From positions 1 to 64,000 of IMG/VR virus record IMGVR_UViG_3300035698_013326: a stretch of 64,000 nucleotides of DNA, one strand, 5' to 3'. A program made the position numbers and the translations under genes. Shown piece by piece: positions 7,368 through 56,723 of the stretch. The DNA is from a virus. The notes below the pieces were generated by a model. The model saw only the letters and a list, made by a program, of their open reading frames with translations, had not been told where the DNA came from and did not search any database. Numbering within the stretch: the stretch's first letter is position 1; each line of letters starts with the position of its first letter.

Positions 7368-7375
7368 GTATAATC

Positions 7376-19738: not shown

Positions 19739-19801
19739 GTCAAATGTTGTATAGTGATAGTGAAGGAGTTATTGCTGGAATTCAATGGGTTGGAGTGCTT
19801 T

Positions 19802-25504: not shown

Positions 25505-25517
25505 CATGGAGGAGTAG

Positions 25518-25817
25518 ATGGATAATTTGATAGACATCTCTACAGATGCAAAGGGAAAGAGTGTTTGTGGCAAGCTTACCATTTGTGAGGCCCATAGGCA
25601 GTTGTATGATCTAATAGAGATTGAGGTGGATGATTCGTGTGAGCAAAAGGATAGGATGCTTTTGTTAGTCAACAAGGCTTTCAATATGGGCATAGCACTG
25701 GTGGGGAAATTGGCGGATCGAAAGATCGAACTACTGGGGTGGGAGAAACATGAGGATGTAGAGGAGATTAAGCGCTTAAGAGATCTTCGGATCACTCTAC
25801 AAAAAAGGAAGGAGTGA
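25518..25817 (+). CDS. Hypothetical helical protein
   Basis: A 99-residue protein with a strong ribosome binding site (GGAGGAG) before ATG 25518. It looks mainly helical, with a C-terminal EEIKRLRDLRITLQKRKE that could be a coiled coil. It is followed by a small Cys protein. Not recognised; it may be a subunit or regulator for the sugar cluster. Confidence 0.7.
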   Translation: MDNLIDISTDAKGKSVCGKLTICEAHRQLYDLIEIEVDDSCEQKDRMLLLVNKAFNMGIALVGKLADRKIELLGWEKHEDVEEIKRLRDLRITLQKRKE

Positions 25818-25819
25818 TA

Positions 25820-26005
25820 ATGGAAAAGCATGGGATTATGGATCATAGTAGGATCGGAGGTGGGTTTCCCTCTTCCAGAGATTGGAATATGCCTACCGTG
25901 AGATGTGCTGTGGTAGATTGTGTGGCGAATCGGAATGGGGAGTGTGTATGCCCCAGTCTTGTTGAGATTGGGAATGATGGCAAATGTGTGGGAGCTAAGA
26001 AATGA
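25820..26005 (+). CDS. Small Cys-rich protein (DUF1540-like)
   Basis: A 61-residue protein with the pattern C-x4-C near residues 30-35, N-x3-G-x-C-x-C near 38-45 and a final C, similar to DUF1540-type small metal-binding proteins. Ribosome binding site AAGGAG precedes ATG 25820. The stop overlaps the next start (ATGA). Function unknown. Confidence 0.6.
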   Translation: MEKHGIMDHSRIGGGFPSSRDWNMPTVRCAVVDCVANRNGECVCPSLVEIGNDGKCVGAKK

Positions 26006-26748
26006 ATAGTATGATCGTGGCTTACTTTACTACAGGGACCATATACGAGGAGCATGCGAAGAATTTCATTCGATCTGTGAGGAGTTTTGACCTGCCGTAT
26101 GAGGTGGTGCCCATTGTGGATAAGGGGGATTGGTATGCAAATATGCAATGGAAACCTGACTTCATCAATGATATGATGATGAAATATTATCCACGATCTA
26201 TTGTGTATGTGGATATTGATGCTGTCTTTTTCAGATGTCCGGTATTATTTAACGAACTTGATGAAGATCCCAGCGTACATATAGCAGTGCATCTTCTCGA
26301 TCATTCAAAGAGAAGAAGATCAAATCATCCACCAGAGTTATTGAGTGGCACTATTTATCTGAAGAACACAGTGACATCTCAAGAAATTGTGCGAAAGTGG
26401 ATCAAGCAGTGTAAGAAGAGTCCAACAATGTGGGATCAGGTTGCGCTGAATCATGTGTTGAAGGAGGGCAACTATCCATATTATGCCTTACCTGAAACAT
26501 ACTGTACGATCTTTGATTACATGTCTGATGTGAAAGAACCTGTGATCAAACATTATCAGGCATCTAGAACAGTTCGGAATGCAGTTCCACGTAAGCATAC
26601 TAAGTTGAAATCAAAAGTTGTGGTGTCGAAGCCAAAGGTTGTGGTGTCGAAACCAAGGATTGTGGATATGAGTGTGGTGAAGTGTCATCCAGCGACATCT
26701 GTTCGTAGGGGTGGCGTGACTCGTATTGGCAGGAAACGTAGACCTTAA
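26002..26748 (+). CDS. Glycosyltransferase-like protein (GT8/GT77-type) with repeat linker
   Basis: A 248-residue protein. MIVAYFTTGTIYEEHAKNFI at the N-terminus (partial: YFTTGTIYEEHA), YVDIDAVFFRCP near residues 72-83 with the DxD metal site, and LSGTIYLKN near 112-120 match nucleotide-diphospho-sugar transferases. MWDQVALNHVL is the conserved acceptor part. The C-terminal tail from about residue 195 is basic, with a direct repeat of KVVVSKP and a final GRKRRP. It is the last glycosyltransferase of the cluster. Confidence 0.75.
   Translation: MNSMIVAYFTTGTIYEEHAKNFIRSVRSFDLPYEVVPIVDKGDWYANMQWKPDFINDMMMKYYPRSIVYVDIDAVFFRCPVLFNELDEDPSVHIAVHLLDHSKRRRSNHPPELLSGTIYLKNTVTSQEIVRKWIKQCKKSPTMWDQVALNHVLKEGNYPYYALPETYCTIFDYMSDVKEPVIKHYQASRTVRNAVPRKHTKLKSKVVVSKPKVVVSKPRIVDMSVVKCHPATSVRRGGVTRIGRKRRP
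26614..26655 (+). repeat. 21-bp tandem duplication in the glycosyltransferase tail
   Basis: Two copies of a 21-bp unit run head to tail inside the gene at 26002-26748 and encode two copies of KVVVSKP. The copies differ at few positions, so the duplication is fairly recent. It extends a basic, flexible C-terminal tail. Confidence 0.85.
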
Positions 26749-33901: not shown

Positions 33902-33975
33902 GGGGGTGTAGCTCAGCTGGCTAGAGCACCGGATTCTTAATCCGTAGGTCGAAGGTTCGAATCCTTCTACCCCTA
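33902..33975 (+). tRNA. tRNA-Lys(CTT)
   Basis: Cloverleaf with D-arm GCTC/GAGC, anticodon loop TTCTTAA and T-arm GAAGG-TTCGAAT-CCTTC. Acceptor pairs GGGGGTG with TACCCCT, ending in two G-U pairs. CCA is not encoded. Confidence 0.9.
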
Positions 33976-34117
33976 CTAGAGTTAGCCTTCTCTAACGCGG
34001 AAAAAGGCAGGCACAGGATGATTCCCGTCTTGGTTTGATTGCCGCCCAATGGTGTGGAGCGCCGTTTCTTGTCAAACAGAAATGGAATAGGTTTCTACTT
34101 TGGGAAGGGAATAATAT
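33976..34117 (+). other. tRNA spacer with small hairpins
   Basis: A 142-base spacer without a supported gene. It contains hairpin GTTAG/CTAAC at 33981-33996 and a TTTCT/AGAAA pair near 34069-34086. It may be a processing spacer. Confidence 0.4.
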
Positions 34118-34190
34118 GGCCCTGTCGTCTAGTGGTTTAGGATGCTGGATTCTCGATCCAGTTACGCCAGTTCGAATCTGGCCAGGGCTA
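34118..34190 (+). tRNA. tRNA-Glu(CTC)
   Basis: Acceptor GGCCCTG/CAGGGCT, anticodon arm CTGGA-TTCTCGA-TCCAG, T-arm GCCAG-TTCGAAT-CTGGC, discriminator A. Body resembles bacterial tRNA-Glu (TCGTCTAG). Confidence 0.92.
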
Positions 34191-34198
34191 TTTGGTAG

Positions 34199-34260
34199 CA
34201 GGTGAGATCCCGCCTGTGTCTGATTACGGCTTTGGAGTTGTCCGCAACCCCCTGTCAGAC
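34199..34260 (+). ncRNA. Structured spacer RNA between tRNA-Glu and tRNA-Leu
   Basis: Two adjacent helices: CAGGTG/CGCCTG (34199-34216) and GTCTGA/TCAGAC (34218-34260), the latter enclosing GTTG/CAAC. The region has no gene or cloverleaf. It resembles other closed elements in this cluster in general layout only. Confidence 0.35.
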
Positions 34261-34298
34261 GGGGACGATTCGTTGACACTCTGAGGAAGGGATCTTGG

Positions 34299-34379
34299 GG
34301 CCTTGTGGTGGAATGGCAGACACGCGAGTTTCAAACACTCGTGCCTTCGGGCGTGAAGGTTCAAGTCCTTCCGAGGCTA
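34299..34379 (+). tRNA. tRNA-Leu(CAA), long variable arm
   Basis: Acceptor GGCCTTG/CGAGGCT, anticodon arm CGAGT-TTCAAAC-ACTCG, variable arm TGCCTTCGGGCG, T-arm GAAGG-TTCAAGT-CCTTC. A normal type II leucine tRNA that reads TTG, a very common codon in these genes. Confidence 0.92.
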
Positions 34380-34384
34380 TTAAG

Positions 34385-34447
34385 GCCGGTTCGATTCCGG
34401 CTCGTTGGTAGAGGTCAGGAGAGACGGGAGTTGGGTTCGATTCCCAA
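34385..34447 (+). other. Two orphan T-arm hairpins (tRNA remnants)
   Basis: GCCGG-TTCGATT-CCGGC at 34385-34401 and TTGGG-TTCGATT-CCCAA at 34431-34447 are canonical T-arms. Between them lies a D-loop-like TTGGTAGAGG but no anticodon arm, and no matching acceptor strands are found. Confidence 0.5.
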
Positions 34448-34454
34448 TGATTGT

Positions 34455-34479
34455 CTTGTCGGAAGATAACGCCGACAAG
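34455..34479 (+). other. Hairpin upstream of tRNA-Glu(TTC)
   Basis: A perfect 8-bp stem CTTGTCGG/CCGACAAG with a 9-base loop; a second hairpin CCGCA/TGCGG lies at 34501-34527, directly before the tRNA. No T-run follows, so they are not classic terminators and may guide processing. Confidence 0.5.
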
Positions 34480-34528
34480 TAACTCTGGCGAGACAAAGAC
34501 CCGCAGGCGTCAGCGTTAGGCGTGCGGA

Positions 34529-34600
34529 GCCCCGGTGGTCTAGTGGATATGATCTTGGACTTTCGATCCGAGGACATCAGTTCGATTCTGATTCGGGGTA
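34529..34600 (+). tRNA. tRNA-Glu(TTC)
   Basis: Acceptor GCCCCGG/TCGGGGT, anticodon arm TTGGA-CTTTCGA-TCCGA, T-arm ATCAG-TTCGATT-CTGAT, discriminator A. Confidence 0.9.
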
Positions 34601-34607
34601 TTGAAGA

Positions 34608-34681
34608 CGCACTGTGGCTCAAAGGGTTAGAGCATCGGATTGTCGATCCGAAGGTTGGGAGTTCGAGCCTCCCCAGTGTGA
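34608..34681 (+). tRNA. tRNA-Asp(GTC)
   Basis: Acceptor CGCACTG/CAGTGTG, D-arm GCTC/GAGC, anticodon arm TCGGA-TTGTCGA-TCCGA, T-arm GGGAG-TTCGAGC-CTCCC. G34 makes it a queuosine-type tRNA. Confidence 0.93.
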
Positions 34682-34684
34682 TTA

Positions 34685-34757
34685 CACCGACTAACTCAAT
34701 TGGTAGAGTACCTGTCCTACACACAGGTTGTTCTTGGTTCAAGTCCAAGGTTGGTGA
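34685..34757 (+). tRNA. tRNA-Val(TAC) with C at position 33
   Basis: Acceptor CACCGAC/GTTGGTG, anticodon arm CCTGT-CCTACAC-ACAGG, T-arm CTTGG-TTCAAGT-CCAAG. The otherwise universal T33 is C. Confidence 0.85.
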
Positions 34758-34778
34758 TTTGGTCAAATGACCATTATT

Positions 34779-34850
34779 AGGACTATGGTGAAATGGATAT
34801 CATACCTGCCTACGGAGTGGGAGTTGAGGGTTCGAGTCCTTCTGGTTCTA
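34779..34850 (+). tRNA. tRNA-Arg(ACG)
   Basis: Acceptor AGGACTA/TGGTTCT, anticodon arm CCTGC-CTACGGA-GTGGG, T-arm GAGGG-TTCGAGT-CCTTC. A34 would need editing to inosine by the host to read all CGN codons. Confidence 0.88.
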
Positions 34851-34852
34851 TT

Positions 34853-34913
34853 GGCTTACGTGAACTTGGTAGCGGGCAGACATTCCTCGCTGGTTCGATT
34901 CCAGCCGTAAGCC
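34853..34913 (+). ncRNA. tRNA-like RNA lacking an anticodon arm
   Basis: Perfect acceptor GGCTTACG/CGTAAGCC and perfect T-arm GCTGG-TTCGATT-CCAGC with a D-loop-like TTGGTAG, but only 28 bases between acceptor and T-arm. No seven-base anticodon loop on a five-pair stem is possible. Confidence 0.55.
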
Positions 34914-34917
34914 TTAC

Positions 34918-34990
34918 GGGCGTGTAGCTCAATTGGGAGAGCGCCTGCCTTGCACGCAGGAGGTTGTGGGTTCAATTCCCATCGTGTCCA
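34918..34990 (+). tRNA. tRNA-Ala(TGC)
   Basis: Acceptor GGGCGTG/CGTGTCC, D-arm GCTC/GAGC, anticodon arm CCTGC-CTTGCAC-GCAGG, T-arm GTGGG-TTCAATT-CCCAT. Confidence 0.93.
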
Positions 34991-34991
34991 T

Positions 34992-35019
34992 TTGCATCTT
35001 TGGAAATTTGGTGTATACT
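34992..35019 (+). promoter_or_regulatory. Promoter, TTGCAT-N16-TATACT, inside the tRNA cluster
   Basis: TTGCAT (34992-34997) and TATACT (35014-35019) are 16 bases apart. The expected start site falls at or next to the 5' end of tRNA-Phe (35028), so this tRNA may need little 5' processing. Confidence 0.87.
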
Positions 35020-35027
35020 ATGAGTAA

Positions 35028-35099
35028 GGACGGATAGCTCAGTAGGCAGAGCGCTGGTGTGAAGTACCAGTAGCCTTGGTTCGATCCCAAGTTCGTCCA
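35028..35099 (+). tRNA. tRNA-Phe(GAA)
   Basis: Acceptor GGACGGA/TTCGTCC, D-arm GCTC/GAGC, anticodon arm CTGGT-GTGAAGT-ACCAG, T-arm CTTGG-TTCGATC-CCAAG. Confidence 0.92.
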
Positions 35100-35101
35100 T
35101 T

Positions 35102-35190
35102 TGCCCGGCTCCAGATAGCATCGTGGTGATGCACTTCGGATGGCGTCCGAAGAGAGACCGTTCAATTCGGACTGGGGGTGCCACCGGGCA
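35102..35190 (+). ncRNA. Closed multi-branch structured RNA, element A
   Basis: Outer helix TGCCCGG/CCGGGCA, continued by CTCCAG/CTGGGG, encloses hairpins GCATC/GATGC and CTTCGGA/TCCGAAG and a short T-loop-like CCG-TTCAATT-CGG. It has the overall outline of a tRNA with a long acceptor but a five-base loop where the anticodon would be. It fits exactly between two tRNAs. Confidence 0.5.
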
Positions 35191-35195
35191 TACTT

Positions 35196-35268
35196 GGCCC
35201 TGTAGCCCAACGGCAGAGGCAACTGGTTTAGAACCAGTACAGTGAAGGTTCAAATCCTTCTGGGGTCA
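35196..35268 (+). tRNA. tRNA-Leu(TAG) with short variable loop
   Basis: Acceptor GGCCCTG/TGGGGTC, anticodon arm ACTGG-TTTAGAA-CCAGT, variable loop ACAGT, T-arm GAAGG-TTCAAAT-CCTTC. Bacterial leucine tRNAs normally have a long variable arm. It reads CTA; the anticodon is not a stop suppressor. Confidence 0.85.
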
Positions 35269-35270
35269 TT

Positions 35271-35398
35271 GTTTCTGGGGACCGTTACAAATGGTGAAGT
35301 TGTAAATCCATGAAGACTGACGAGTCTACGGTTGCTGAAAGGTATCAATCGCTATAGAGTGGGCTGCATGATAGATGCGGCAAAGCTATCTCAGAAAC
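35271..35398 (+). ncRNA. Closed multi-hairpin structured RNA, element B
   Basis: Outer helix GTTTCTG/CAGAAAC (35271-35277 with 35392-35398) encloses TTACAA/TTGTAA (35285-35305), AGACT/AGTCT (35314-35327), ACCGT/ACGGT and GCTGCAT/ATGCGGC (35363-35381). The first and third inner helices cannot both use base 285. No gene is supported here. Confidence 0.45.
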
Positions 35399-35402
35399 TT
35401 AG

Positions 35403-35488
35403 GTCAGCGTAGATCGTTAAGGAGGCGGCACGGGCTGTAAACCCGTTCCCCGAAAGGGGCCGAGTGGGATCGTTACCCTCAGCTGGCA
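35403..35488 (+). tRNA. tRNA-Tyr(GTA), long variable arm
   Basis: Anticodon arm ACGGG-CTGTAAA-CCCGT and variable arm TCCCC-GAAA-GGGG are clear. Acceptor GTCAGCG/AGCTGGC has one mismatch, and T-arm GTGGG-ATCGTTA-CCCTC is diverged from the usual T-loop. Length of 86 fits a type II tRNA. Confidence 0.7.
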
Positions 35489-35512
35489 TTGGAGGCATAC
35501 TATGAGGAAATT

Positions 35513-35728
35513 ATGGATGGTTGGGCGACGTGGTTTTGGATTGAAACACGTCAGAAAACGAAAGAAGAAGCTATTCGGGAGTTTTGGATTGAGGCAAGGT
35601 ATTGGGCCTTTTCATGTGAACCTGAGGTATGTGAGCATGTGGTGATGTTTAGAGGATGCCGTATGGCCCTTGAGCAGGCTGTGAAGGGTCAGGAGGTGTA
35701 TCCTGATGAGAGGATTGCAGAATTATGA
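35513..35728 (+). CDS. Small hypothetical protein
   Basis: A 71-residue protein (MDGWATWFWIETRQKTKEEA at the start, partial) rich in Trp, Glu and Cys. ATG 35513 has GAGGA upstream. An overlapping frame starting at ATG 35502 has a stronger GGAGG site but encodes only a 47-residue basic peptide. Its stop overlaps the next start. Not recognised. Confidence 0.6.
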   Translation: MDGWATWFWIETRQKTKEEAIREFWIEARYWAFSCEPEVCEHVVMFRGCRMALEQAVKGQEVYPDERIAEL

Positions 35729-35889
35729 AGATTATGAAGCTTGGAAGATTAAAGATCAGCTTTGAGAGATTCTACTCAAGATTTCAGTATGTGGCATTGA
35801 GTATTGGGTACGACACTCGCACCAGATCGCTGCAATTTCAGCTCATCAATTGGGCTTTGGTAATTAAATATGAGGAAAAGCACCGGTAG
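35725..35889 (+). CDS. 54-residue microprotein whose stop lies in tRNA-Leu(TAA)
   Basis: ATG 35725 overlaps the previous stop (ATGA). The product has 54 residues with many aromatic and basic residues (FERFYSRFQYVALSIGY). The TAG stop at 35887-35889 is formed by bases 8-10 of the following tRNA, giving a 10-base overlap. Confidence 0.55.
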   Translation: MKIMKLGRLKISFERFYSRFQYVALSIGYDTRTRSLQFQLINWALVIKYEEKHR

Positions 35890-35952
35890 CCCAAAGGCAG
35901 AGGCATCCGGTTTAAGCCCGGTACAGTGGTGGTTCGAATCCACTTCGGTGTA
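35880..35952 (+). tRNA. tRNA-Leu(TAA) with short variable loop
   Basis: Acceptor GCACCGG/TCGGTGT, anticodon loop TTTAAGC, variable loop ACAGT, T-arm GGTGG-TTCGAAT-CCACT. The body is close to tRNA-Leu(TAG) at 35196, so the two arose by duplication. Confidence 0.83.
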
Positions 35953-35961
35953 TTGTGTATT

Positions 35962-36061
35962 GTGGATCGGCGTGAAAATCGCCAGCATCCCCCAGTGGCC
36001 CATTAGAATTGCGGGGACGACCAAAATTAACGGTTGTGTAGAATAAGGTCACGTGATCCAC
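35962..36061 (+). ncRNA. Closed multi-branch structured RNA, element C
   Basis: Outer helix GTGGATC/GATCCAC encloses GGCG-TGAAAAT-CGCC (35969-35983), a CCCC/GGGG pairing and ACGACC/GGTTGT (36017-36037). It ends five bases before tRNA-Cys. No gene is supported. Confidence 0.45.
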
Positions 36062-36066
36062 ATCGT

Positions 36067-36138
36067 GATGAAGTGGCCGAGAGGCTAGGCGGCAGATTGC
36101 AACTCTGTCCTACGTGGGTTCGAATCCCTCCTTCATCT
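36067..36138 (+). tRNA. tRNA-Cys(GCA)
   Basis: Perfect acceptor GATGAAG/CTTCATC, anticodon arm GCAGA-TTGCAAC-TCTGT, T-arm GTGGG-TTCGAAT-CCCTC. Confidence 0.92.
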
Positions 36139-36145
36139 TTGTTAT

Positions 36146-36218
36146 TCCATGGTAGCTCAGTTGGTAGAGCGCCTGACTGTTAATCAGGATGTCGGAGGTT
36201 CGAGCCCTCCCTGTGGAG
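36146..36218 (+). tRNA. tRNA-Asn(GTT)
   Basis: Acceptor TCCATGG/CTGTGGA, D-arm GCTC/GAGC, anticodon arm CCTGA-CTGTTAA-TCAGG, T-arm GGAGG-TTCGAGC-CCTCC. Queuosine-type G34. Confidence 0.94.
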
Positions 36219-36220
36219 CT

Positions 36221-36294
36221 GTGGCTGTGGCTCAAATGGATAGAGCAGCTGGCTGTGATCCAGCGGACTACGGGTTCAAGTCCCGTCAGTCACC
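36221..36294 (+). tRNA. tRNA-His(GTG)
   Basis: Acceptor GTGGCTG/CAGTCAC, anticodon arm GCTGG-CTGTGAT-CCAGC, T-arm ACGGG-TTCAAGT-CCCGT, discriminator C as usual for His. The base before position 1 is T, not G. Confidence 0.93.
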
Positions 36295-36296
36295 TT

Positions 36297-36385
36297 GGTT
36301 CTACTGTCTGGTGAATGCAATGTGTCACATTGTAGGAGGTTCGATTCCTCATGGAGAAATCAGGTTCGAGTCCTGAGTAGAGCCT
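36297..36385 (+). ncRNA. Rearranged tRNA-like RNA with two T-arms
   Basis: Acceptor GGTTCTAC/GTAGAGCC and T-arm TCAGG-TTCGAGT-CCTGA are canonical. Inside are GCAAT-GTGTCAC-ATTGT, which could serve as an anticodon arm (GTC), and a second T-arm-like GAGG-TTCGATT-CCTC where a variable arm would be. The D-arm is too short. Confidence 0.5.
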
Positions 36386-36453
36386 TATGAGATGCCTTTA
36401 GATTGCTGGCAATGTGCTGGCATCAAATACATCATTTGGTAGGGAGAATTGGT

Positions 36454-36687
36454 ATGAGAAATAGATTGGTGGCATTTGTGGTGATGTTGATGCTTTGTGG
36501 ATCGGCCTTGGCAGGTGTCAAGATCGATGATGCGAAGTATGGAACATGGTTTGATGTGGGGACGGTTGATGGAACGATCATGGTCTTCGATGAGGACAAG
36601 ATCCTCAATGAGAGAACTTTTCATCTCGTTACAGATGGTATTGTGACTCGTCAGGAATCTGTGAAGATAGCTGGTTCGTATCTATAA
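36454..36687 (+). CDS. Secreted periplasmic-type small protein
   Basis: A 77-residue protein starting at ATG 36454 behind AGGGAG. The first 20 residues form a signal peptide (LVAFVVMLMLCGSALA). The mature part of about 57 residues is beta-rich (GTWFDVGTVDGTIMVFDEDK). Not recognised. Confidence 0.72.
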   Translation: MRNRLVAFVVMLMLCGSALAGVKIDDAKYGTWFDVGTVDGTIMVFDEDKILNERTFHLVTDGIVTRQESVKIAGSYL

Positions 36688-36702
36688 CTTTCGGGGATTG
36701 TT

Positions 36703-36855
36703 ATGAGCATCCAACGTATGGATGTATCGCTGATTGGTCAACATCTGGATCGTACTGGACACAGGCTTGTAAGTGAAGTTACTAAGAGAAGGGGCGGCAT
36801 TGTCGCCCTCTCTGTTTTTGTTGATGGATATGAGAAAACCAAAGAAGAAACCTAG
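36703..36855 (+). CDS. 50-residue hypothetical protein (conflicts with a hairpin)
   Basis: ATG 36703 follows CGGGGATTG and opens a 50-residue frame that reads like protein (GIVALSVFVDGYEK near the end). A GC-rich hairpin followed by TTTTTG lies within it, which argues for an untranslated region instead. Confidence 0.4.
   Translation: MSIQRMDVSLIGQHLDRTGHRLVSEVTKRRGGIVALSVFVDGYEKTKEET
36790..36820 (+). terminator. Possible terminator of the tRNA region
   Basis: GGGCG-GCATTGT-CGCCC followed by TCTCTGTTTTTG looks like a Rho-independent terminator. It overlaps a possible small gene, so one of the two calls is wrong or the hairpin is read through. Confidence 0.45.
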
Positions 36856-36955
36856 ATTGCCGAGATTCAAGGTGCCTCCACCTACTTCAGTCCATGAGGA
36901 CAGGAAGAAGGAAAGGAACAAGAGGCGTTGTCGGCTTCCCATTGAGGATGAATGA
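36830..36955 (+). CDS. 41-residue basic microprotein
   Basis: ATG 36830 opens a 41-residue frame, Lys/Arg/Pro-rich (KPKKKPRLPRFKVPPP) with an acidic end. There is no clear ribosome binding site. It ends just before the next start. Could bind nucleic acid if real. Confidence 0.35.
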   Translation: MRKPKKKPRLPRFKVPPPTSVHEDRKKERNKRRCRLPIEDE

Positions 36956-36956
36956 C

Positions 36957-37241
36957 ATGACAGTTGAAGAGATGTGTGATATATTTGAAGATGAGAGAGA
37001 ATGTGACAAGGAGGATGAGGAAGTGGGACGATCTGATTTGCGTGCTTTGCTCATGTTGGATCAGTTAGTGAGTGACGAAAAAAGGATGATAAGTCACGTT
37101 ATGTGTGGGAGAATCTTTTTAGATGTAGATGTAGAGAAACTTGCATCTGTGATTTCTTATGCGCAGATTGTTACACTGGTTCGAAGTGGTGTGGATGTGA
37201 ATGTTGAAGATCCAGGATTGAGTATTTCAGTTGAGTTCTGA
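36957..37241 (+). CDS. Hypothetical protein, paralogue 1 of a pair
   Basis: A 94-residue acidic protein (MTVEEMCDIFEDERECDKED, partial). ATG 36957 was chosen because the paralogue at 37344 starts MTVEEL. Shared parts include IFLDVD-EKLASVI against IFLDVELGDLASVI and VTLVRSGVDVN against RTLVRCGLHVD. Unknown role. Confidence 0.65.
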   Translation: MTVEEMCDIFEDERECDKEDEEVGRSDLRALLMLDQLVSDEKRMISHVMCGRIFLDVDVEKLASVISYAQIVTLVRSGVDVNVEDPGLSISVEF

Positions 37242-37254
37242 AGAGGAGAAATAG

Positions 37255-37344
37255 ATGTTCACTAAGATGGAATGGCTTGTCATTGGTTTGGCAACTGGCG
37301 TGTTTGTGACATCAGCGATTTGTTCTATTATAGGAGTGTTGTGA
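37255..37344 (+). CDS. 29-residue membrane microprotein
   Basis: ATG 37255 sits behind AAGAGGAGAAATAG, a strong site. The 29 residues form one hydrophobic helix (WLVIGLATGVFVTSAICSIIG). Its TGA overlaps the next ATG, so it is coupled to the paralogue 2 gene. Confidence 0.6.
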   Translation: MFTKMEWLVIGLATGVFVTSAICSIIGVL

Positions 37345-37646
37345 TGACGGTTGAAGAGTTGATTGATTTGTTTGAGAAGATCATAGAGGAGCCGTTTGGG
37401 GACAACATGTTCAAAAACATTGAGAATCCTCTGCATCCAAGATCGGACATCTGTGCGTTTATGTTACTCCATGATTTGGTGGGTGGCACTGGTGACATGG
37501 TGGTCGCTGCGGAGCATGATGAGATCTTCCTGGATGTGGAGCTAGGGGATTTGGCTTCGGTCATTACTCCGGATCAGGTTCGTACTCTGGTTCGATGTGG
37601 ACTTCATGTGGATGAGGACCACGAAGGACTGTCAATGTTTGTATAG
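37344..37646 (+). CDS. Hypothetical protein, paralogue 2 of a pair
   Basis: A 100-residue acidic protein beginning MTVEELIDLFEKI. It aligns with paralogue 1 over the second half. Coupled to the upstream microprotein by TGATG. Not recognised. Confidence 0.7.
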   Translation: MTVEELIDLFEKIIEEPFGDNMFKNIENPLHPRSDICAFMLLHDLVGGTGDMVVAAEHDEIFLDVELGDLASVITPDQVRTLVRCGLHVDEDHEGLSMFV

Positions 37647-37654
37647 GGGGTGAC

Positions 37655-37843
37655 ATGATTACAGATAAAGAACGACTTGATTGGTTGCAGAAGCAGTTGG
37701 ACAAGGCATCATATACAGGAAGATGTGTTTTTCGTTGGTCTACAACGGATAGGGGATTTCGTCTCCATGAAACGAGTTTTCCAGGAGCCGTATCGAGTGT
37801 GAGACAAGCGATTGATGATGGAATGAAACAAATGGGGGCATAG
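37655..37843 (+). CDS. 62-residue protein whose stop lies in tRNA-Lys(TTT)
   Basis: ATG 37655 follows AGGGGGTGAC. The protein starts MITDKERLDWLQKQLDK, similar to the start of the gene at 38148 (MTTDKNRVDFLQ). The TAG stop is made of bases 8-10 of tRNA-Lys(TTT), a 10-base overlap. Unknown role. Confidence 0.75.
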   Translation: MITDKERLDWLQKQLDKASYTGRCVFRWSTTDRGFRLHETSFPGAVSSVRQAIDDGMKQMGA

Positions 37844-37907
37844 CTCAGATGCGCAGAGCAACCGGCTTTTACCCGGTATGTCGCAGGTTCGAGTCCTGCT
37901 GCCCCCA
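37834..37907 (+). tRNA. tRNA-Lys(TTT)
   Basis: Perfect acceptor GGGGGCA/TGCCCCC, D-arm GCTC/GAGC, anticodon arm ACCGG-CTTTTAC-CCGGT, T-arm GCAGG-TTCGAGT-CCTGC. Confidence 0.94.
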
Positions 37908-37910
37908 CAT

Positions 37911-37983
37911 GCTGGTGTAGCTCAATTGGAAGAGCGCTCGCCTTGTAAGCGAGGGGTTGTGGGTTCGACTCCCTCTACCAGCT
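37911..37983 (+). tRNA. tRNA-Thr(TGT)
   Basis: Acceptor GCTGGTG/TACCAGC, D-arm GCTC/GAGC, anticodon arm CTCGC-CTTGTAA-GCGAG, T-arm GTGGG-TTCGACT-CCCTC. Confidence 0.93.
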
Positions 37984-37987
37984 TTGC

Positions 37988-38059
37988 AGACCTGTGGTGT
38001 AATTGGTAGCACCTGGGACTCTGAATCCCACAGTCTACGTTCAAGTCGTAGCAGGTCTA
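37988..38059 (+). tRNA. tRNA-Gln(CTG)
   Basis: Perfect acceptor AGACCTG/CAGGTCT, D-arm GTGT/GCAC, anticodon arm TGGGA-CTCTGAA-TCCCA, T-arm CTACG-TTCAAGT-CGTAG. Confidence 0.93.
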
Positions 38060-38064
38060 TTGCT

Positions 38065-38136
38065 GGACCCGTAGTGTAACGGTCAGCACCGGAGGTTTTG
38101 ATCCTCCTAGTTTTGGTTCGACTCCAGACGGGTTCA
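38065..38136 (+). tRNA. tRNA-Gln(TTG)
   Basis: Acceptor GGACCCG/CGGGTTC, D-arm GTGT/GCAC, anticodon arm GGAGG-TTTTGAT-CCTCC, T-arm TTTGG-TTCGACT-CCAGA. Confidence 0.93.
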
Positions 38137-38147
38137 TTGGAGATGAG

Positions 38148-38459
38148 ATGACGACAGATAAAAACAGAGTTGATTTCTTGCAGTCACGTGCGGCTGAGGG
38201 TGATTCACCAGAGATCATACCGTGGGGAGACGTGCGAGAACAGATTGATAGAGAGATGGCAGAGGTTGGTTACATGGACTTCCCGGAGTACTATTGTGAT
38301 TGTGGCTTTGGGTTTGATTGTCTTGATTGTGAGGGCGCACTTGAGTGCATCCGTTCAACTCCACAGCAGTGGAATCCTGGTGGTCAGAGTTACTCGTGGA
38401 CATCGTATTACAGGTGTCCTGAGTGTGGATGTGAAATCGAAATTGAAGAGGGTGACTGA
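38148..38459 (+). CDS. Zinc-ribbon-type hypothetical protein
   Basis: A 103-residue protein with a helical N-terminus (MTTDKNRVDFLQSR) and a Cys-rich C-terminal half: CDCGFGFDCLDC near residues 50-61 and CPECGC near 90-95. These could form one or two zinc sites. Overlaps the ligase start (TGATG). Confidence 0.75.
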   Translation: MTTDKNRVDFLQSRAAEGDSPEIIPWGDVREQIDREMAEVGYMDFPEYYCDCGFGFDCLDCEGALECIRSTPQQWNPGGQSYSWTSYYRCPECGCEIEIEEGD

Positions 38460-39382
38460 TGCAGAAGCCAATGTTAGCGAATAAGTACGAGGACAAGAAG
38501 GCTGAGTTTCCTTGCTTTGTCCAACCGAAGTTTGATGGTGTCCGTTGTATGTTTGATGGTGAAGATGCATGGACACGAAACCAGAAGCCACACAAGCCAC
38601 ATATCGTGGACATGTTGAAGGCACTTCATCCGATTCTCCCTGAGGGGATGGTGTTGGATGGTGAGCTGATTCTTCCCAAGCCGTGGACATTCCAGAAAAC
38701 TGTATCGGTGGTCAAGAAGTACTACCCAGCTAAGGTTGATCTTACACCATTGTCACAGGAGATATCTGATAAATGGAAGCGAGAGATAGCTGACAGGTGG
38801 AAAGATGAGGATGATGATGCATTCTACACACATAAACCAGAGGATGATCTATATGTCTCCAGCGACCTGCTGCGATACCATGTGTACGACTGCTACTTCC
38901 CAGATCAGCCTGAGTTGACATTCGCAGGACGTATGGAGCGGGTTCGACGTGCAGTGTGTGAGGATGCAGTAGGGGCTGTGATGATCTATGCGCCTAAGGA
39001 TTTGTGGGAGTGGTTGGATACGTATATTGATCAGGGCTATGAGGGTCTGATTTATCGCAATCCGAAGGGTGTGTACAAGCATGGTCGGAGTGGGAGAGAT
39101 CTTCTGAAGCTGAAGAAGTTTTTGGATGATGAGTATCAGATCGTGGGAGCCATTGAGGGTAAGGGTAAGGACAAGGGCACTCCAATTTGGGTGTGTCGAG
39201 TGTCTGCAACAGATGCGAGAACATTCAAGGCTCGTCCTATGGGAACCTACAAGTGGCGCAGAGAAGCGTGGGTAGATCGTCTGAGTTACTATGGTAGGAT
39301 GCTCACAGTCAAGTACCAGGAGTTGACCGATGATGGCATTCCGAGATTCCCGATTGGTGTTTCGGTGAGAGACTACGAATAG
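38459..39382 (+). CDS. ATP-dependent DNA ligase
   Basis: A 307-residue ligase that seals nicks with ATP. The adenylated Lys is in QPKFDGVRC near residue 24; VLDGELIL near 64-71 is motif III, GYEGLIYRNP near 193-202 motif IV, LLKLKKF near 213-219 motif V. The C-terminal 90 residues form the OB-fold, ending GIPRFPIGVSVRDYE. It completes the replication set. Seven bases later a tRNA follows. Confidence 0.94.
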   Translation: MQKPMLANKYEDKKAEFPCFVQPKFDGVRCMFDGEDAWTRNQKPHKPHIVDMLKALHPILPEGMVLDGELILPKPWTFQKTVSVVKKYYPAKVDLTPLSQEISDKWKREIADRWKDEDDDAFYTHKPEDDLYVSSDLLRYHVYDCYFPDQPELTFAGRMERVRRAVCEDAVGAVMIYAPKDLWEWLDTYIDQGYEGLIYRNPKGVYKHGRSGRDLLKLKKFLDDEYQIVGAIEGKGKDKGTPIWVCRVSATDARTFKARPMGTYKWRREAWVDRLSYYGRMLTVKYQELTDDGIPRFPIGVSVRDYE

Positions 39383-39388
39383 AGTACT

Positions 39389-39462
39389 GGGATCATAGCT
39401 CAAATGGATAGAGCGGCAGCCTCCTAAGCTGCATGTTGAGGGTTCGAGTCCTTCTGGTCCCA
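39389..39462 (+). tRNA. tRNA-Arg(CCT)
   Basis: Acceptor GGGATCA/TGGTCCC, D-arm GCTC/GAGC, anticodon arm GCAGC-CTCCTAA-GCTGC, T-arm GAGGG-TTCGAGT-CCTTC. A T-rich stretch follows. Confidence 0.94.
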
Positions 39463-39481
39463 ATTTTTTGTCATTTCTTTT

Positions 39482-40592: not shown

Positions 40593-40593
40593 C

Positions 40594-40707
40594 ATGTTGC
40601 GATTCCTGGAAGGTGTGTTGGTTGGAGCACTTTTATACCATATTGGATGGGATGTGGTTAGTAGTGTAATCGAAACGGGTGTGACATTTGCAAAGGGGTT
40701 GTTTTGA
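40594..40707 (+). CDS. 37-residue membrane microprotein
   Basis: ATG 40594 behind GAGGAG opens a 37-residue frame with a hydrophobic stretch (FLEGVLVGALLYHIG). Stop overlaps the next ATG (TGATG). Not recognised. Confidence 0.55.
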   Translation: MLRFLEGVLVGALLYHIGWDVVSSVIETGVTFAKGLF

Positions 40708-41621
40708 TGCATAAAGCACTGAATGTGATGTGGGATGTGACGCATAAAGTGTGCGACAATGACGAGCACGTGTGGCTTGAGATGCGGGGCAGGCATTGGG
40801 ATTTGGCTGTTGATCAGCTATGCCAATTCAACTTGGAGAGTCCAAGTGGGAATCAGCCATATCCGGAGGGCGTGACAAATCTCACGGAGTTCCTGGTGTT
40901 TTGTCTGGTGACAAATTCCATCAACTATTGCTATTGGTATGGCTGGGATGAAATTCGCCCCAATGGATCTGGCTACAAAGTTGTGGCTGATGTGGTTGCG
41001 AAGGCGATAAAGGCATGTCCAGGCTATAATGGGGTGGAGGATCTGTTCCCTGCGGTAGTATCGAAGGTGAAGTGGGGTATTCGATTCAAGCGACTTCCAA
41101 TGTTGGAGGAGCGTTTGCGACATTTGGAGGAGCTGATTGGACCGCGCACCAATTTGCGACAAGTACACAATGAGATGCAGACAGGTGATCCATTGGAAAT
41201 GACCGTGGCACTGAGCATGCTGGAGGCATACTTTCCAGGCTATGTGTCGGACATTTTTCTGAAGCGAGCGAGTCTGTTCCTCTTGGAACTGTATCGAAGT
41301 CGGAATCTATTTGGCCGTCCGGACCTTTTCATGGGTGAAATAGGTCATTTGCCGGTTCCAATAGACTATCATATTCCGAATGTACTTCAGGCGATGGAGT
41401 TACTATGTTACGTGCCGACTTTGAAGAGCAAAATACAAGCACATGAACTAATTCCGAAGGGATCGCGGTGGGAAGTGGAGATTCGGGCTCAATCGGCCCT
41501 TGTTTGTCGGAAATTGGCGGCAAAAGTACGATGTTCTGCGGCTGAAGTGGACACATGGCTCTATTTGCAGAGAAAAAAGGTCAATACGCCGTTCCACTTG
41601 ACAATTACAACTGATTATTGA
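40707..41621 (+). CDS. Queuosine-salvage-like glycosidase (DUF2419/Qng1 family)
   Basis: A 304-residue protein. Three parts match the queuosine salvage family: NSINYCYWYGW near residue 70 (family: NFxFW), IDYHIPNVLQ near 217-226 (family: DYRxPQxL, containing the likely catalytic Asp), and SRWEVEIRAQSA near 251-262 (family: EVEIRAxS). The enzyme releases queuine from queuosine 5'-phosphate. The match is by motif, not by search. All four Q-type tRNAs are encoded by this phage. TGATG links it to the upstream microprotein; a TTG at 40704 is less likely as start. Confidence 0.68.
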   Translation: MHKALNVMWDVTHKVCDNDEHVWLEMRGRHWDLAVDQLCQFNLESPSGNQPYPEGVTNLTEFLVFCLVTNSINYCYWYGWDEIRPNGSGYKVVADVVAKAIKACPGYNGVEDLFPAVVSKVKWGIRFKRLPMLEERLRHLEELIGPRTNLRQVHNEMQTGDPLEMTVALSMLEAYFPGYVSDIFLKRASLFLLELYRSRNLFGRPDLFMGEIGHLPVPIDYHIPNVLQAMELLCYVPTLKSKIQAHELIPKGSRWEVEIRAQSALVCRKLAAKVRCSAAEVDTWLYLQRKKVNTPFHLTITTDY

Positions 41622-41628
41622 GGGAATC

Positions 41629-41907
41629 ATGGATAAACAGCAAATAATCGACTTAATGGCGAATCGTGATTACGCCTTATACACTGATACCGGAGGTCCA
41701 ATCATATTTTTTCGACATATGAAGTGGACAAAGCTTTCAGCGCAGGTGAACTTGGATAGGGAGGTGATTCAGTTCAGATTCCTAACTCAAGTGGGCGTAT
41801 TGTTGACTGTGGAGTCACAGGGTATGCTCATTGAGGAAGCAAGGACAGTTCGGCGAAATGAGGCGGCTATGATCAGAGCCATGATCAATTTGAGGGTGGG
41901 AAAATGA
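41629..41907 (+). CDS. Hypothetical protein
   Basis: A 92-residue protein with a helical start (KQQIIDLMANRDYAL), a beta-rich middle and a helical end. ATG 41629 follows AGGGAATC. It overlaps the cREC gene by four bases. Not recognised. Confidence 0.7.
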   Translation: MDKQQIIDLMANRDYALYTDTGGPIIFFRHMKWTKLSAQVNLDREVIQFRFLTQVGVLLTVESQGMLIEEARTVRRNEAAMIRAMINLRVGK

Positions 41908-42221
41908 GAACATTACTGATTGACGACGTGCGCACAATGGAGGCAGATGCTATCGTTCGGAGTGCAGAGTTGGCGAAGGCCATACTGGGTGGTCCTCTGC
42001 ATTTCGATGTGGTCTACCTGGATCATGATTTGGGGCCGGGAGAGGTTGGTTTGGATGTGCTGCGGTGGATCTTCAGGGCGAACATTCGGCCTACGTCTAT
42101 CATACTCATAACAAGGAATCCGGTAGGACTCGCTAATATGAAGGCCGAGTTGATGGCTAATGATTATACTCTTGCTCATGATGGTACGGGTGCTTGGGTT
42201 GATAGATTCAAAGGGGAATGA
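41904..42221 (+). CDS. Cyclic-phosphate-processing receiver-domain (cREC-like) protein
   Basis: A 105-residue receiver-fold protein: LLIDDVRTMEAD at the N-terminus, DVVYLDHDLGPGEVGLDVL near residues 35-53 and RNPVGLANMKAEL near 71-83. The LDHDLG and NPVG motifs are those of the cREC family, proposed from comparative genomics to process cyclic-phosphate ends. It lies 0.6 kb before RtcB, which ligates 2',3'-cyclic-phosphate or 3'-phosphate RNA ends. Confidence 0.78.
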   Translation: MRTLLIDDVRTMEADAIVRSAELAKAILGGPLHFDVVYLDHDLGPGEVGLDVLRWIFRANIRPTSIILITRNPVGLANMKAELMANDYTLAHDGTGAWVDRFKGE

Positions 42222-42811: not shown

Positions 42812-44026
42812 ATGAGAGTTGAGAACCACAAAGATATGTTGCCGATCAAGATGTGGCTGGATGATATTGAGCCTTCAGCCATGCAACAATTGTACAACTT
42901 GGCGCAGCTTCCGTTTGCGTATAAGTGGATTGCGGTCATGCCTGACTGCCACATGGGCTATGGCATGCCAATTGGTGGCGTCATGGCTACGAAGGGCGTG
43001 GTCATCCCGAATGCCGTGGGCGTGGATATTGGGTGCGGGATGTGTGCGGTCAAGACTTCTTTGATGGCACTGGATGGGGATGAGGGATATGGGAATGAAT
43101 ATGATTCTCATATCTGGAAGAGGATCATGGGTAAGATTCGATCACGTATCCCAATGGGGCGCAACCATCATCAGCAGATGGTCCCGACGTTTGATATGCC
43201 GGATTGGGATGAGGTTTGTAATACAATCGCCGGCGCTAAAAAATCGATAATACATCAGGAATTCAACAATGCTCGTCACCAGCTGGGAACGTTGGGTGGT
43301 GGAAACCATTTCATCGAAATCCAGAAGGGTTCAGATGGGCATATCTGGATCATGTTGCACTCAGGGTCCAGGAACGTGGGCTACAAGGTGGCACAGCACT
43401 ACAACAAGCTGGCTATAGGTTTGAATGAGAAGTGGCAATCTCAGGTTCCGAAGCACGCGCAGTTGGCTTTCCTGCCTCTGGATACTCAGGAAGGACAGGA
43501 GTATCTGGTTGAGATGCAGTGGTGTGTTGATTTTGCATTGGCTAATCGTCACCACATGATGGATGAGATTCAGCGCATCTTTCGTGAGGAGTTTGGTATC
43601 GTCACATTCCCTCAGAGGATCAACATAGCCCATAACTATGCAGCGATGGAGCATCACTATGGGCAGAACGTTATGGTCCATCGGAAAGGCGCAACGAGAG
43701 CGTATAAGGGCGAATTGGGTATCATTCCTGGATCTATGGGGACGAAGTCTTACATTGTGGAGGGCCTGGGAAATCCGGAATCCTTTATGTCGTGTTCGCA
43801 TGGGGCCGGAAGGCTCATGTCTAGAACGCGAGCGAAAGAGGAGTTGAACCTGGAAGCCGAGCAGGCTGCAATGGATGCGAAGGGGATCATTCATGGTCTG
43901 CGTGGGAGAGCAAATCTGGATGAGGCTCCAGGTGCTTACAAGAACATTGATACTGTGATGAAGAATCAGACAGATCTTGTGACTTCCATAGTGGAGTTGG
44001 AACCAATAGCAGCAGCAAAAGGTTGA
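42812..44026 (+). CDS. rtcB: RtcB-type RNA ligase
   Basis: A 404-residue RNA ligase that joins 3'-phosphate or 2',3'-cyclic-phosphate RNA to 5'-OH ends. Metal and GMP-site motifs are in place: MPDCHMGYG near residue 45, VGVDIGCGMCAV near 68-79, LGGGNHFIEI near 160-169, LHSGSRNVGY near 180-189, HNYAAMEHH near 271 and SCSHGAGR near 326-333, containing the guanylated His. The gene has its own promoter and leader hairpin. Phages can use it to repair tRNAs cut by host defences. Confidence 0.97.
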   Translation: MRVENHKDMLPIKMWLDDIEPSAMQQLYNLAQLPFAYKWIAVMPDCHMGYGMPIGGVMATKGVVIPNAVGVDIGCGMCAVKTSLMALDGDEGYGNEYDSHIWKRIMGKIRSRIPMGRNHHQQMVPTFDMPDWDEVCNTIAGAKKSIIHQEFNNARHQLGTLGGGNHFIEIQKGSDGHIWIMLHSGSRNVGYKVAQHYNKLAIGLNEKWQSQVPKHAQLAFLPLDTQEGQEYLVEMQWCVDFALANRHHMMDEIQRIFREEFGIVTFPQRINIAHNYAAMEHHYGQNVMVHRKGATRAYKGELGIIPGSMGTKSYIVEGLGNPESFMSCSHGAGRLMSRTRAKEELNLEAEQAAMDAKGIIHGLRGRANLDEAPGAYKNIDTVMKNQTDLVTSIVELEPIAAAKG

Positions 44027-44036
44027 GAGGAGACAG

Positions 44037-44264
44037 ATGAAAACGGCATTGGTGGCATTGTGGTTGGTCGTGGCGGTTGCGATATTCGCCATGTACAGTT
44101 CTGCTGGAGAGCAGATGGAGCGTACCGTAGCTGTCCAGCAGGTGGAAGACTCAGAGGCTCCGTATCACGTGGTTCGGAACTTCCGTAAGGTGAGAGGTGC
44201 AGTTGCAGTCACACTGTGTGGCTTGGCTGGCTTCGCAACAATTCGTTTTGGAAAGGGTAAGTAA
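44037..44264 (+). CDS. Small membrane protein next to rtcB
   Basis: A 75-residue protein with an N-terminal hydrophobic segment (LVALWLVVAVAIFAMY), a soluble middle and a second hydrophobic stretch (AVAVTLCGLAGFATI). GAGGAGACAG precedes ATG 44037. Its stop overlaps the SPFH gene start, so the two are coupled and may form one membrane complex. Confidence 0.7.
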   Translation: MKTALVALWLVVAVAIFAMYSSAGEQMERTVAVQQVEDSEAPYHVVRNFRKVRGAVAVTLCGLAGFATIRFGKGK

Positions 44265-45313
44265 TGAAGAGGTTCAAAAGTTTCATCGTGGCAGCATTGA
44301 TGCTGATCATCGCATTTGGTGTGGGTGGTTGTTGGAAGCCCCCGCGCGTCGATCCCATCGAAGAGATCGGAAACAATGAAACGGGGTTTGTGGTTTCTTT
44401 GGAAGGTGCCAACAAGACGAACCAAGCCAAATTTGGTTCAGTTGCGTATCTGGAAGATTCCAAGGTTGCAACCAAGCGGATCGTCATTCCGCAGCGGTGG
44501 CGCAAGACGGGCCGTTTTGGTTTTCAGGGTGAGTGGATTCCCTCAGTGAAAATCATCACAGTGGATCGTACTCCCGTTACTCGCCAGTGGACTCCGGACG
44601 TAACTACAGGAACATCCAATTCCAATCAATCTATTCAGGTAGAATCGGCTGATTCTGTAGGCTTCAGCGTTGGATTCGGTTGTACAGCAATGGTGGAAGA
44701 GGCCAATACAGCAACGTTCCTTTATTACTACCCATCTGGTTCATTGGCACGTGTTATGGATTCCGAGATTCGTGAGCGCATTCAGAGGGTGGCAGCAATC
44801 GAATGTGCGAAGGATGATTTGGATCAGCTCCGAGCCAAGAAGAATGAAGTGCAAAAGGCCGTAGAAGATGATGTGGTTGCCTTCTATGAGAAAGTCGGCG
44901 TCTCGATTCGTACTGTCAGCATGTTCGGTGGTTTCCTGTATGAGAATCCGGATATCCAGTCAGCGATTGACAAGGTGTTCGTGTCTCAGCAGGAGAAGAC
45001 TGTAGCGAGCGCACTATTGGATGCTCAGGGCGACAAGAACCTGCGATTGGAGCAGGAGGGCGAGGGTGAGGCCAAGAAGGCCATTAAGATTGCTGAAGGT
45101 GCGGCTCAGGCCCTGCGTTTGGTCAATACGGCTGCGGAAGAAGCTCGTCAGAATCCCCTGTTTTTGGAGTTGAGAAAGCTGGAAGTCGAGCTGAAGCGGT
45201 TGGAAGCATGGGACGGCAAGTATCCTCAGTGGTACATGGGTGGCAGTGGACAGGACTTGGGACTCATTGTGAGCCCACCAAGCGCGCCATCGGCCTCAGG
45301 GGCGTCACGGTAG
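44264..45313 (+). CDS. SPFH/prohibitin-type lipoprotein
   Basis: A 349-residue protein. Residues 1-22 form a lipoprotein signal with lipobox GVGGC, Cys 23 being the lipidated residue. Residues 100-210 look like an SPFH core, and from about 245 a long helix rich in Glu, Ala and Lys (EGEGEAKKAIKIAEGAAQAL) is the coiled region of flotillin/prohibitin proteins. The C-terminus is a Pro/Ser/Ala tail. SPFH proteins build ring or cage assemblies on membranes; the role in a phage is unknown. A metal-free scaffolding function is inferred. Confidence 0.72.
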   Translation: MKRFKSFIVAALMLIIAFGVGGCWKPPRVDPIEEIGNNETGFVVSLEGANKTNQAKFGSVAYLEDSKVATKRIVIPQRWRKTGRFGFQGEWIPSVKIITVDRTPVTRQWTPDVTTGTSNSNQSIQVESADSVGFSVGFGCTAMVEEANTATFLYYYPSGSLARVMDSEIRERIQRVAAIECAKDDLDQLRAKKNEVQKAVEDDVVAFYEKVGVSIRTVSMFGGFLYENPDIQSAIDKVFVSQQEKTVASALLDAQGDKNLRLEQEGEGEAKKAIKIAEGAAQALRLVNTAAEEARQNPLFLELRKLEVELKRLEAWDGKYPQWYMGGSGQDLGLIVSPPSAPSASGASR

Positions 45314-55466: not shown

Positions 55467-56723
55467 ATGCTGACAAGTGCAGAGTCAAACAATGCGATTG
55501 TGGTGGAGTTGCAGAACGTGCGGCCACATCCGAATGCTGACAGACTCCAGTTGGCCACTGTGGTTGGTGATCAGGTGGTGGTTGGTTTGGATGCAAGGGA
55601 TGGTGACATTGGGGTGTATTTCGACAGCAACCTGCGCCTGTCTCCGGACTTTCTACGGCTCAATAATCTGTACTCAAATTCAGAGATGAATGTGGATGAC
55701 AGTGTCAAGGGCTACTTCGGGAAGAATGGAAGAGTTCGGGCGCAGAAGTTCCGTGGTGCGATGTCGAATGGATATATTGCCACCATCCAGTCTATTCAGA
55801 AATTGGTTGGGGCAGTGAGTGGTATGGGCCTTATGTCGTACCTTAGCGTGGGTGACGAATTTACCCACGTGAATGGTGTGAATGTCTGTGAGAAGTATGT
55901 GGTTCCTTGCAAGTCTCCTGGTGCCATTGGGTCTCGTACAAAGAGAGTGCGAGTGCCTGTGTCAGAGATGTTCTGGAAGCATTGGGACACGAAGCAATTG
56001 CTTCGAGAGTATCACCGTATTCCGACTGGTGTGGTGTACATTGAGGAGAAGATCCATGGGACATCAGCGCGTACCGGGAATGTGCTCTTCAAGACACAAC
56101 GTCCGTGGTGGAAGTTTTGGGCTCCGAAGGAGACTGAGGAGTGGGGAGTGGTTAGTGGGACTCGTCGGGTGGACAGCATTCGAGCGCACCTTCATGGGGC
56201 ACGGCAGGAGGTTGAGGATAAGGTTCGTCCTCACCTGAAGAAGGGTGAGCAGATCTATTACGAGATCTTCGGCCACAGTTTGAGTGGGGCTGAGATCCAG
56301 GGTGGTTACTCTTATGGGTGTGCGGGTGGTCAGTATCGTGTGATCTTGTACAGAGTGACAGTGACGACTCCGGATGGTTTCTGTGTGGATCTATCGAGAC
56401 CAGCAGTTTACCAGCGTGCGGTGGAATTGGGGTTGGAGATGCCTCCGTTGTTGGGTGTGGGACTCTATCATGCTGAGGAGCAGGTGGTGTCTGGTTTGGA
56501 TGTGTGGACGTTCCAGTACAAGAATATGAACTTGGAAGGGTTGAAGGGGCAGGTTAAGGGCAAGTCTACTCTGGATGCAAGTACACTCCTGGAGGGTGTG
56601 GTGGTCTGGTTCTTGGATGATTATGGCAAATGGAGATGCCTTAAGCTCAAGAGTGATGAGTTTTTGCTCAAGGAAGACAAGCAACGTGAGAAGGGCATCG
56701 GTGACGTAGAAGATAATCAATAG
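55467..56723 (+). CDS. RNA ligase, DRB0094/Rnl-type
   Basis: A 418-residue nucleotidyltransferase ligase. Residues 12-40 (VRPHPNADRLQLATVVGDQVVVG, partial) resemble the OB domain in front of DRB0094-type RNA ligases. The ligase domain has YIEEKIHGTSA near residue 190 with the adenylated Lys, YYEIFGHSL near 264-272, LLEGVVVWF near 373-381 and LKLKSDEF near 391. It seals 3'-OH/5'-phosphate RNA ends, complementing RtcB. Strong ribosome binding site. Confidence 0.85.
   Translation: MLTSAESNNAIVVELQNVRPHPNADRLQLATVVGDQVVVGLDARDGDIGVYFDSNLRLSPDFLRLNNLYSNSEMNVDDSVKGYFGKNGRVRAQKFRGAMSNGYIATIQSIQKLVGAVSGMGLMSYLSVGDEFTHVNGVNVCEKYVVPCKSPGAIGSRTKRVRVPVSEMFWKHWDTKQLLREYHRIPTGVVYIEEKIHGTSARTGNVLFKTQRPWWKFWAPKETEEWGVVSGTRRVDSIRAHLHGARQEVEDKVRPHLKKGEQIYYEIFGHSLSGAEIQGGYSYGCAGGQYRVILYRVTVTTPDGFCVDLSRPAVYQRAVELGLEMPPLLGVGLYHAEEQVVSGLDVWTFQYKNMNLEGLKGQVKGKSTLDASTLLEGVVVWFLDDYGKWRCLKLKSDEFLLKEDKQREKGIGDVEDNQ

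Follow-up and report, generated by a model that had tools for sequence, protein, structure and literature searches.

The gene at the center of this study encodes a protein of 304 residues that, judged by sequence and predicted structure, genuinely belongs to the Qng1/DUF2419 family, whose enzymes release queuine, a vitamin-like base, from degraded tRNA; the protein is very probably a Qng1-family N-glycosidase. Sequence comparison places it in a virus-specific Qng1 branch that was previously unnoticed and is absent from the named phages searched. There is good support for its family and its likely chemistry, but less for its precise substrate.

The window, i.e., the whole stretch of 64,000 nucleotides that was analyzed, comprises bases 1 to 64000 of a 64,083-base virus record. 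It comes from a phage with a contractile tail, as seen from genes for a tail sheath, a baseplate wedge, and T4-like baseplate proteins, and has a replication set of DnaB-like helicase, primase, processivity factor, and UDG-PolA polymerase. The polymerase (59827-62535) joins a uracil-DNA glycosylase domain to a DNA polymerase of family A, and SPO1-like phages have proteins that match it similarly over the full length. The region 18959-26748 holds a cluster, unusually rich for a phage, of glycosyltransferases together with an FkbM-type methyltransferase and a sialyltransferase-like protein, and a virion protein with Kelch repeats and an Ig-like domain is encoded at 13358-15301. The features relevant to the present analysis are listed in Table 1.

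TABLE 1 Features of the window discussed in the text
Feature	Position	Strand	Description
tRNA array	33902..39463	+	About 20-21 tRNAs for 14 amino acids (Lys, Glu, Leu, Asp, Val, Arg, Ala, Phe, Cys, Asn, His, Thr, Gln, Tyr); ARAGORN and Rfam (Tyr by alignment)
tRNA-Asp(GTC), Q-type	34608..34681	+	ARAGORN and Rfam, 66.7 bits
tRNA-Tyr(GTA), Q-type	about 35402..35488	+	Missed by ARAGORN and Rfam; located by alignment
tRNA-Asn(GTT), Q-type	36146..36219	+	ARAGORN and Rfam, 67.9 bits
tRNA-His(GTG), Q-type	36221..36294	+	ARAGORN and Rfam, 62.1 bits
Small upstream ORF	40593..40707	+	37 aa, read from the sequence; its TGA overlaps the qng1 ATG (TGATG); conserved in L106
qng1-like gene	40707..41621	+	304 aa from ATG 40707; viral-type Qng1/DUF2419 nucleotide N-glycosidase; predicted catalytic Asp D220 and Lys K186
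Downstream ORF	41629..41907	+	92 aa; no family match
cREC_REC (cyclic-phosphate processing receiver domain)	41904..42221	+	PF20274, E = 2.2e-13; overlaps the preceding 92-aa ORF
RtcB RNA ligase	42812..44026	+	PF01139, E = 4.9e-114
ATP-dependent RNA ligase	55467..56723	+	Phage family phrog_968, E = 1.6e-46

Family, predicted fold, and active site of the phage protein

Pfam returned a single family for the 304-residue protein, PF10343 (Q_salvage), with an E value of 1.6e-17 and a score of 64.4 bits (cutoff, 25). Qng1 was the top match of a single-sequence search against the PDB (E = 3e-9), and when a profile of 37 viral homologues was used instead, the solved Qng1 structures were matched over the full length at an E value of 5e-34. 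For structure prediction, an AlphaFold2 run with a three-sequence alignment was discarded (pLDDT, 46), and the 37-sequence alignment was used in its place, giving a model with a pLDDT of 92.5 and a pTM of 0.91. Comparison of this model with the PDB by Foldseek produced eleven matches below 0.001, all of them Qng1/DUF2419 structures (E values of 5e-11 to 1e-9; TM score, 0.74), followed at 0.02 and beyond by matches that include 8-oxoguanine DNA glycosylases. Profile search and structural superposition are thus in accordance with the original prediction, which had assigned the protein to this family on the basis of three motifs. All three are present and aligned with their Qng1 counterparts, namely, NSINYCYW (NFxFW-like), PIDYHIPN (DYRxPQ-like), and EVEIRA.

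The catalytic aspartate is retained in the predicted structure. Specifically, D231 of Qng1 corresponds to D220 and K199 to K186 in an alignment that was checked against the D231N (7ulc) and K199C (7u5a) chains, and both D220 and K186 are invariant in the 37 aligned viral homologues. According to the alignment, residues N72, R140, Y232, P235, E267, R271, D298, H316, T318, and T320 of canonical Qng1 are conserved as well. Beside the catalytic residues, F229 and Y198 of canonical Qng1 are changed to P218 and L185, respectively; further changes concern F73/F75 (Y74/Y76), R317 (leucine), and the GYWAL stretch, which is replaced. Because positions beside the catalytic residues differ, the substrate could differ from that of canonical Qng1.

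The qng1 gene in the window and in close relatives

The start of qng1 at ATG 40707 is supported by the relative L106 (DnaB, 94%), which retains the identical first codons ATG CAT AAA GCA, and an AAGGGG sequence lies approximately 8 nucleotides 5′ of this ATG. The overlap of qng1 with the 37-residue ORF upstream suggests translational coupling. The 92-residue ORF adjoins qng1 also in L001 (DnaB, 84%) and is retained in L106 and G053 (DnaB, 80%), both of which lack an intact qng1. A Band 7/SPFH-domain protein (44264-45313) is encoded next to RtcB in the window and likewise in G053.

L106 still carries both ends of the deleted gene (L106:2246-2319): qng1 is reduced to its first ~11 codons and its last six codons plus the stop, while the gene order is kept on both flanks. 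It follows from this remnant that qng1 was ancestral in this phage group and is dispensable. L001 has kept qng1 and lacks cREC and RtcB, whereas L106 and G053 have kept cREC and RtcB without qng1. Altogether, qng1 is an optional accessory, which is under selection in many viruses and has been lost in close relatives.

Q-type tRNAs

The original prediction had further linked the enzyme to tRNAs for Asp, Asn, His, and Tyr, described as exactly the four that carry queuosine (Q) at position 34. Their presence was confirmed, clearly for Asp, Asn, and His and by alignment for Tyr; the word "exactly" is misleading, as the four are part of an array of ~21 tRNAs, and any 14 of 20 amino acids would contain all four Q-type ones at random with p = 0.21. 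The tRNA-Tyr(GTA) gene aligns end to end with the ARAGORN-called tRNA-Tyr genes of L001 and G053, and since this full-length alignment shows paired changes in the anticodon stem and the variable stem, the gene is taken to be real. A second "tRNA-Asp" called by ARAGORN at 36297-36385, with a long variable region, two T-arm-like hairpins, and no Rfam support, is probably degenerate. Short tRNA-like hairpin units were also seen between the canonical tRNAs (34849-34910, 34380-34460, and 35103-35192), some of them with acceptor-like ends and T-arm-like sequence, and seemingly similar units occur in L001 (3370-3450 and 3525-3620).

The proposal that the phage manages Q modification of its own tRNAs through a tie between qng1 and these genes finds no support in the relatives, across which the two assort independently. 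G053 has all four Q-type tRNAs and no qng1, while L001 has qng1 and five tRNAs, among which only tRNA-Tyr is Q-type. Other Qng1-bearing viruses possess between zero and four Q-type tRNAs, and none was detected in the G006, G024, and G002 regions. A specific tie between qng1 and the four tRNAs was therefore rejected because of this mismatch in presence and absence. Their co-occurrence is real in the window, yet it is no general rule, given that relatives range from none to all four, and it is probably coincidental.

Distribution, phylogeny, and selection of viral Qng1

Viral-type Qng1 was found in about 40 IMG/VR records, i.e., 39 loci from scans and one from the control set. The set contains a few duplicates, and L052, which groups with canonical Qng1 and is surrounded by cellular-type genes, is probably a bacterial contig. 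Many of the Qng1-bearing records measure 80 to 550 kb, the largest 548 kb. No viral-type Qng1 was detected among 50,697 named phages (INPHARED) with the window protein, StQng1, and L046 as queries, a BFVD fold search matched no viral structure, and the literature searched reports no phage queuine-salvage enzyme. In the GTDB, a single genome of 84,980 has a viral-type Qng1, located in an Opitutaceae MAG contig; the search patterns were derived from viral sequences, so that canonical Qng1 would go uncounted. Plasmids contributed five Qng1 genes, all of the canonical type.

In a tree with few cellular sequences included, the viral proteins are separate from StQng1, the plasmid proteins, and L052. 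The long branch below the canonical group is supported (100/96); support for the viral group as a whole is modest (82/85). Values of dN/dS between 0.21 and 0.31 in five viral qng1 pairs indicate that purifying selection acts on the viral gene. Two of the large Qng1-bearing phages, G003 and G013, were found to have tmRNA genes (L136:2980-3340 and L138:12086-12471) and a tRNA with a CTA anticodon, possibly an amber suppressor (L136:14299 and L138:13063).

Other queuosine and 7-deazaguanine genes

The models used detected no TGT, QueC, QueD, or DpdA in the 64-kb window. The earlier observation that deazaguanine DNA modification genes are missing from this DNA thus stands, and the accompanying idea that freed queuine might serve DNA modification finds no support in the window. 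TGT (PF01702) was also absent from the 39 other Qng1-bearing records and DpdA, by the models used, from all 40, records that may be fragments. The DpdA family is diverse, and a distant form may escape the models. QueC was present in 12 of the 40 records. For QueD, the count was 13 of 41 with Qng1 (about 40 records) versus 9 of 44 controls without it (p = 0.32), and within the RNR lineage 6 of 8 versus 5 of 11 (p = 0.35). A tie between qng1 and preQ0 synthesis, strong at first sight with QueC and QueD in 12 and 13 of 40 records, was dropped, as it is not significant against the control records.

Individual neighborhoods vary. In L048, queC (6797-7561) immediately precedes qng1, and this record also has queD at a distance of ~6 kb. 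On the Azospira plasmid (L125:10644-16832), qng1 is part of an operon with a DEAD/DEAH helicase and DUF4031 and adjoins a DNA methyltransferase; a methyltransferase (Mrr_N) is adjacent to qng1 in L016 too.

Proposed role of the phage enzyme

Characterized Qng1 converts queuosine-5′-monophosphate (Q-5′-MP) to queuine, the free base, and ribose-5-phosphate. The best explanation of the data as a whole, which we regard as on balance probable, is an active Qng1-type N-glycosidase that would free queuine from Q-5′-MP for a host tRNA-guanine transglycosylase (TGT). That the substrate would be a Q-type nucleotide is, taken by itself, a little more probable still; that the benefit would come through tRNA Q34 is a more tentative assumption. 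According to this proposal, infection would break or turn over tRNA and thereby release Q-5′-MP, which the phage Qng1 would hydrolyze (or a close 7-deazaguanine nucleotide in its place) to the free base and ribose-5-phosphate. The host TGT would then reinsert queuine at position 34 of the Asp, Asn, His, and Tyr tRNAs, both of the host and phage borne. Free queuine can re-enter tRNA via a TGT that accepts it (PMC11130926). Such a host enzyme is needed for the proposed role because no phage TGT is encoded in the 64-kb window. Most bacterial TGTs use preQ1 and not queuine, and for this reason many hosts may have no use for the freed queuine. The weakest link of the proposal is thus its need for a host TGT that uses queuine.

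In favor of this role, qng1 is situated in a tRNA/RNA-repair part of the genome, with cREC and RtcB downstream, an RNA ligase, and the tRNA array. NAU accounts for 66-78% of the NAY codons of the phage, and the reading of NAU codons is affected by Q34. Q was described to rise late during infection of Shewanella by the marine phage 1/4 (PMC9963407). According to the literature, phage tRNAs can offset host tRNA loss (PMC10264068, citing Yang 2021), and the loss or cutting of tRNA in infection appears to be what phage tRNAs, RNA ligases, RtcB, and cREC act against (PMC10264068 and PMC7824862). Against it stand the lack of coinheritance of qng1 and Q-type tRNAs and the fact that close relatives live without qng1.

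Alternative explanations

An alternative that we consider unlikely is a shifted substrate, i.e., a Qng1-fold N-glycosidase acting on another 7-deazaguanine nucleotide (of the preQ0/preQ1 type or a modified deoxynucleotide) in the nucleotide or DNA-modification metabolism of the phage and not on tRNA-derived Q. The altered residues next to the catalytic ones would fit such a shift, as would the QueC and QueD genes in Qng1-bearing records, the adjacent queC in L048, and the position of qng1 beside a class II RNR in the L018/L022 group; in addition, a bacterial gene adjoining qng1 encodes a transporter that carries preQ0/preQ1 (PMC11130926). However, QueD is nearly as common in controls without Qng1, both overall and in the RNR lineage, DpdA and TGT were not found by the models used, and the window itself has neither QueC nor QueD. 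It is just as doubtful that a separate, long-established viral lineage with a pocket reshaped for a different 7-deazaguanine nucleotide would give phages a way of salvaging bases that cells are not known to have, and that might supply the modification of tRNA or DNA.

A response to RNA damage, in which Qng1 together with cREC and RtcB would clear or recycle the nucleotides of tRNAs cut by host anticodon nucleases, appears slightly less likely again. Several such nucleases hit Q-type tRNAs, and in the window qng1, an ORF, cREC, another ORF, and RtcB follow one another on the same strand, with overlaps between the first of them. cREC is found two genes 3′ of qng1 in L020 and L021 as well, and links between cREC and RNA ligases have been described (PMC7824862). 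Yet the genes assort independently, as seen in L106, G053, and L001, and among Qng1-bearing records RtcB was present in only 2 of 13 searched and cREC in 10 of 40. A tie of qng1 to cREC/RtcB RNA repair, clustered in the window and separated in close relatives, was accordingly rejected. Least probable by far is that qng1 was captured from a host recently and is now either decaying or neutral. The deletion in L106 and the absence of qng1 from G053 would be compatible with decay, but the ORF is intact, the dN/dS values are low, the catalytic residues are invariant in about 40 viral records, and the branch leading away from cellular Qng1 is deep.

Comparison with known systems

The synthesis of 7-deazaguanine bases for phage DNA is known; the presence of a virus-specific branch of Qng1 in large uncultured phages, about 40 in number, suggests that viruses manage the supply of queuosine in the cells they infect. 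This makes a direct test possible, namely, whether Q34 is altered by infection and whether the phage enzyme is the cause.

With the Qng1/DUF2419 proteins of Sphaerobacter thermophilus and human (PDB 7u07, 7u91, 7ulc, 7u5a, and 7ugk), the window protein shares the full-length fold, K199 and D231, and the further conserved residues from N72 to T320 named above. It differs from them in having only ~22% identity, in being shorter and phage encoded, and in having no neighboring Q gene in the 64-kb window. The plasmid-encoded "queuosine salvage family proteins" of Azospira and Variovorax have the family, the catalytic residues, and the location on mobile DNA in common with it, but their place in the tree is with canonical Qng1 and apart from the viral proteins. 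Phage-carried 7-deazaguanine chemistry is also represented by the DpdA and QueC/D/E systems of phage 9g and relatives (PMC6884629). Those systems synthesize bases and insert them into DNA, whereas the window gene, accompanied by no DpdA, QueC, or QueD, would release a base from a nucleotide; the paper describing those systems makes no mention of DUF2419 (PMC6884629). Finally, QueK is likewise a queuine-releasing enzyme, acting on Q or Q-MP (PMC11130926), but belongs to the unrelated nucleoside-hydrolase family.
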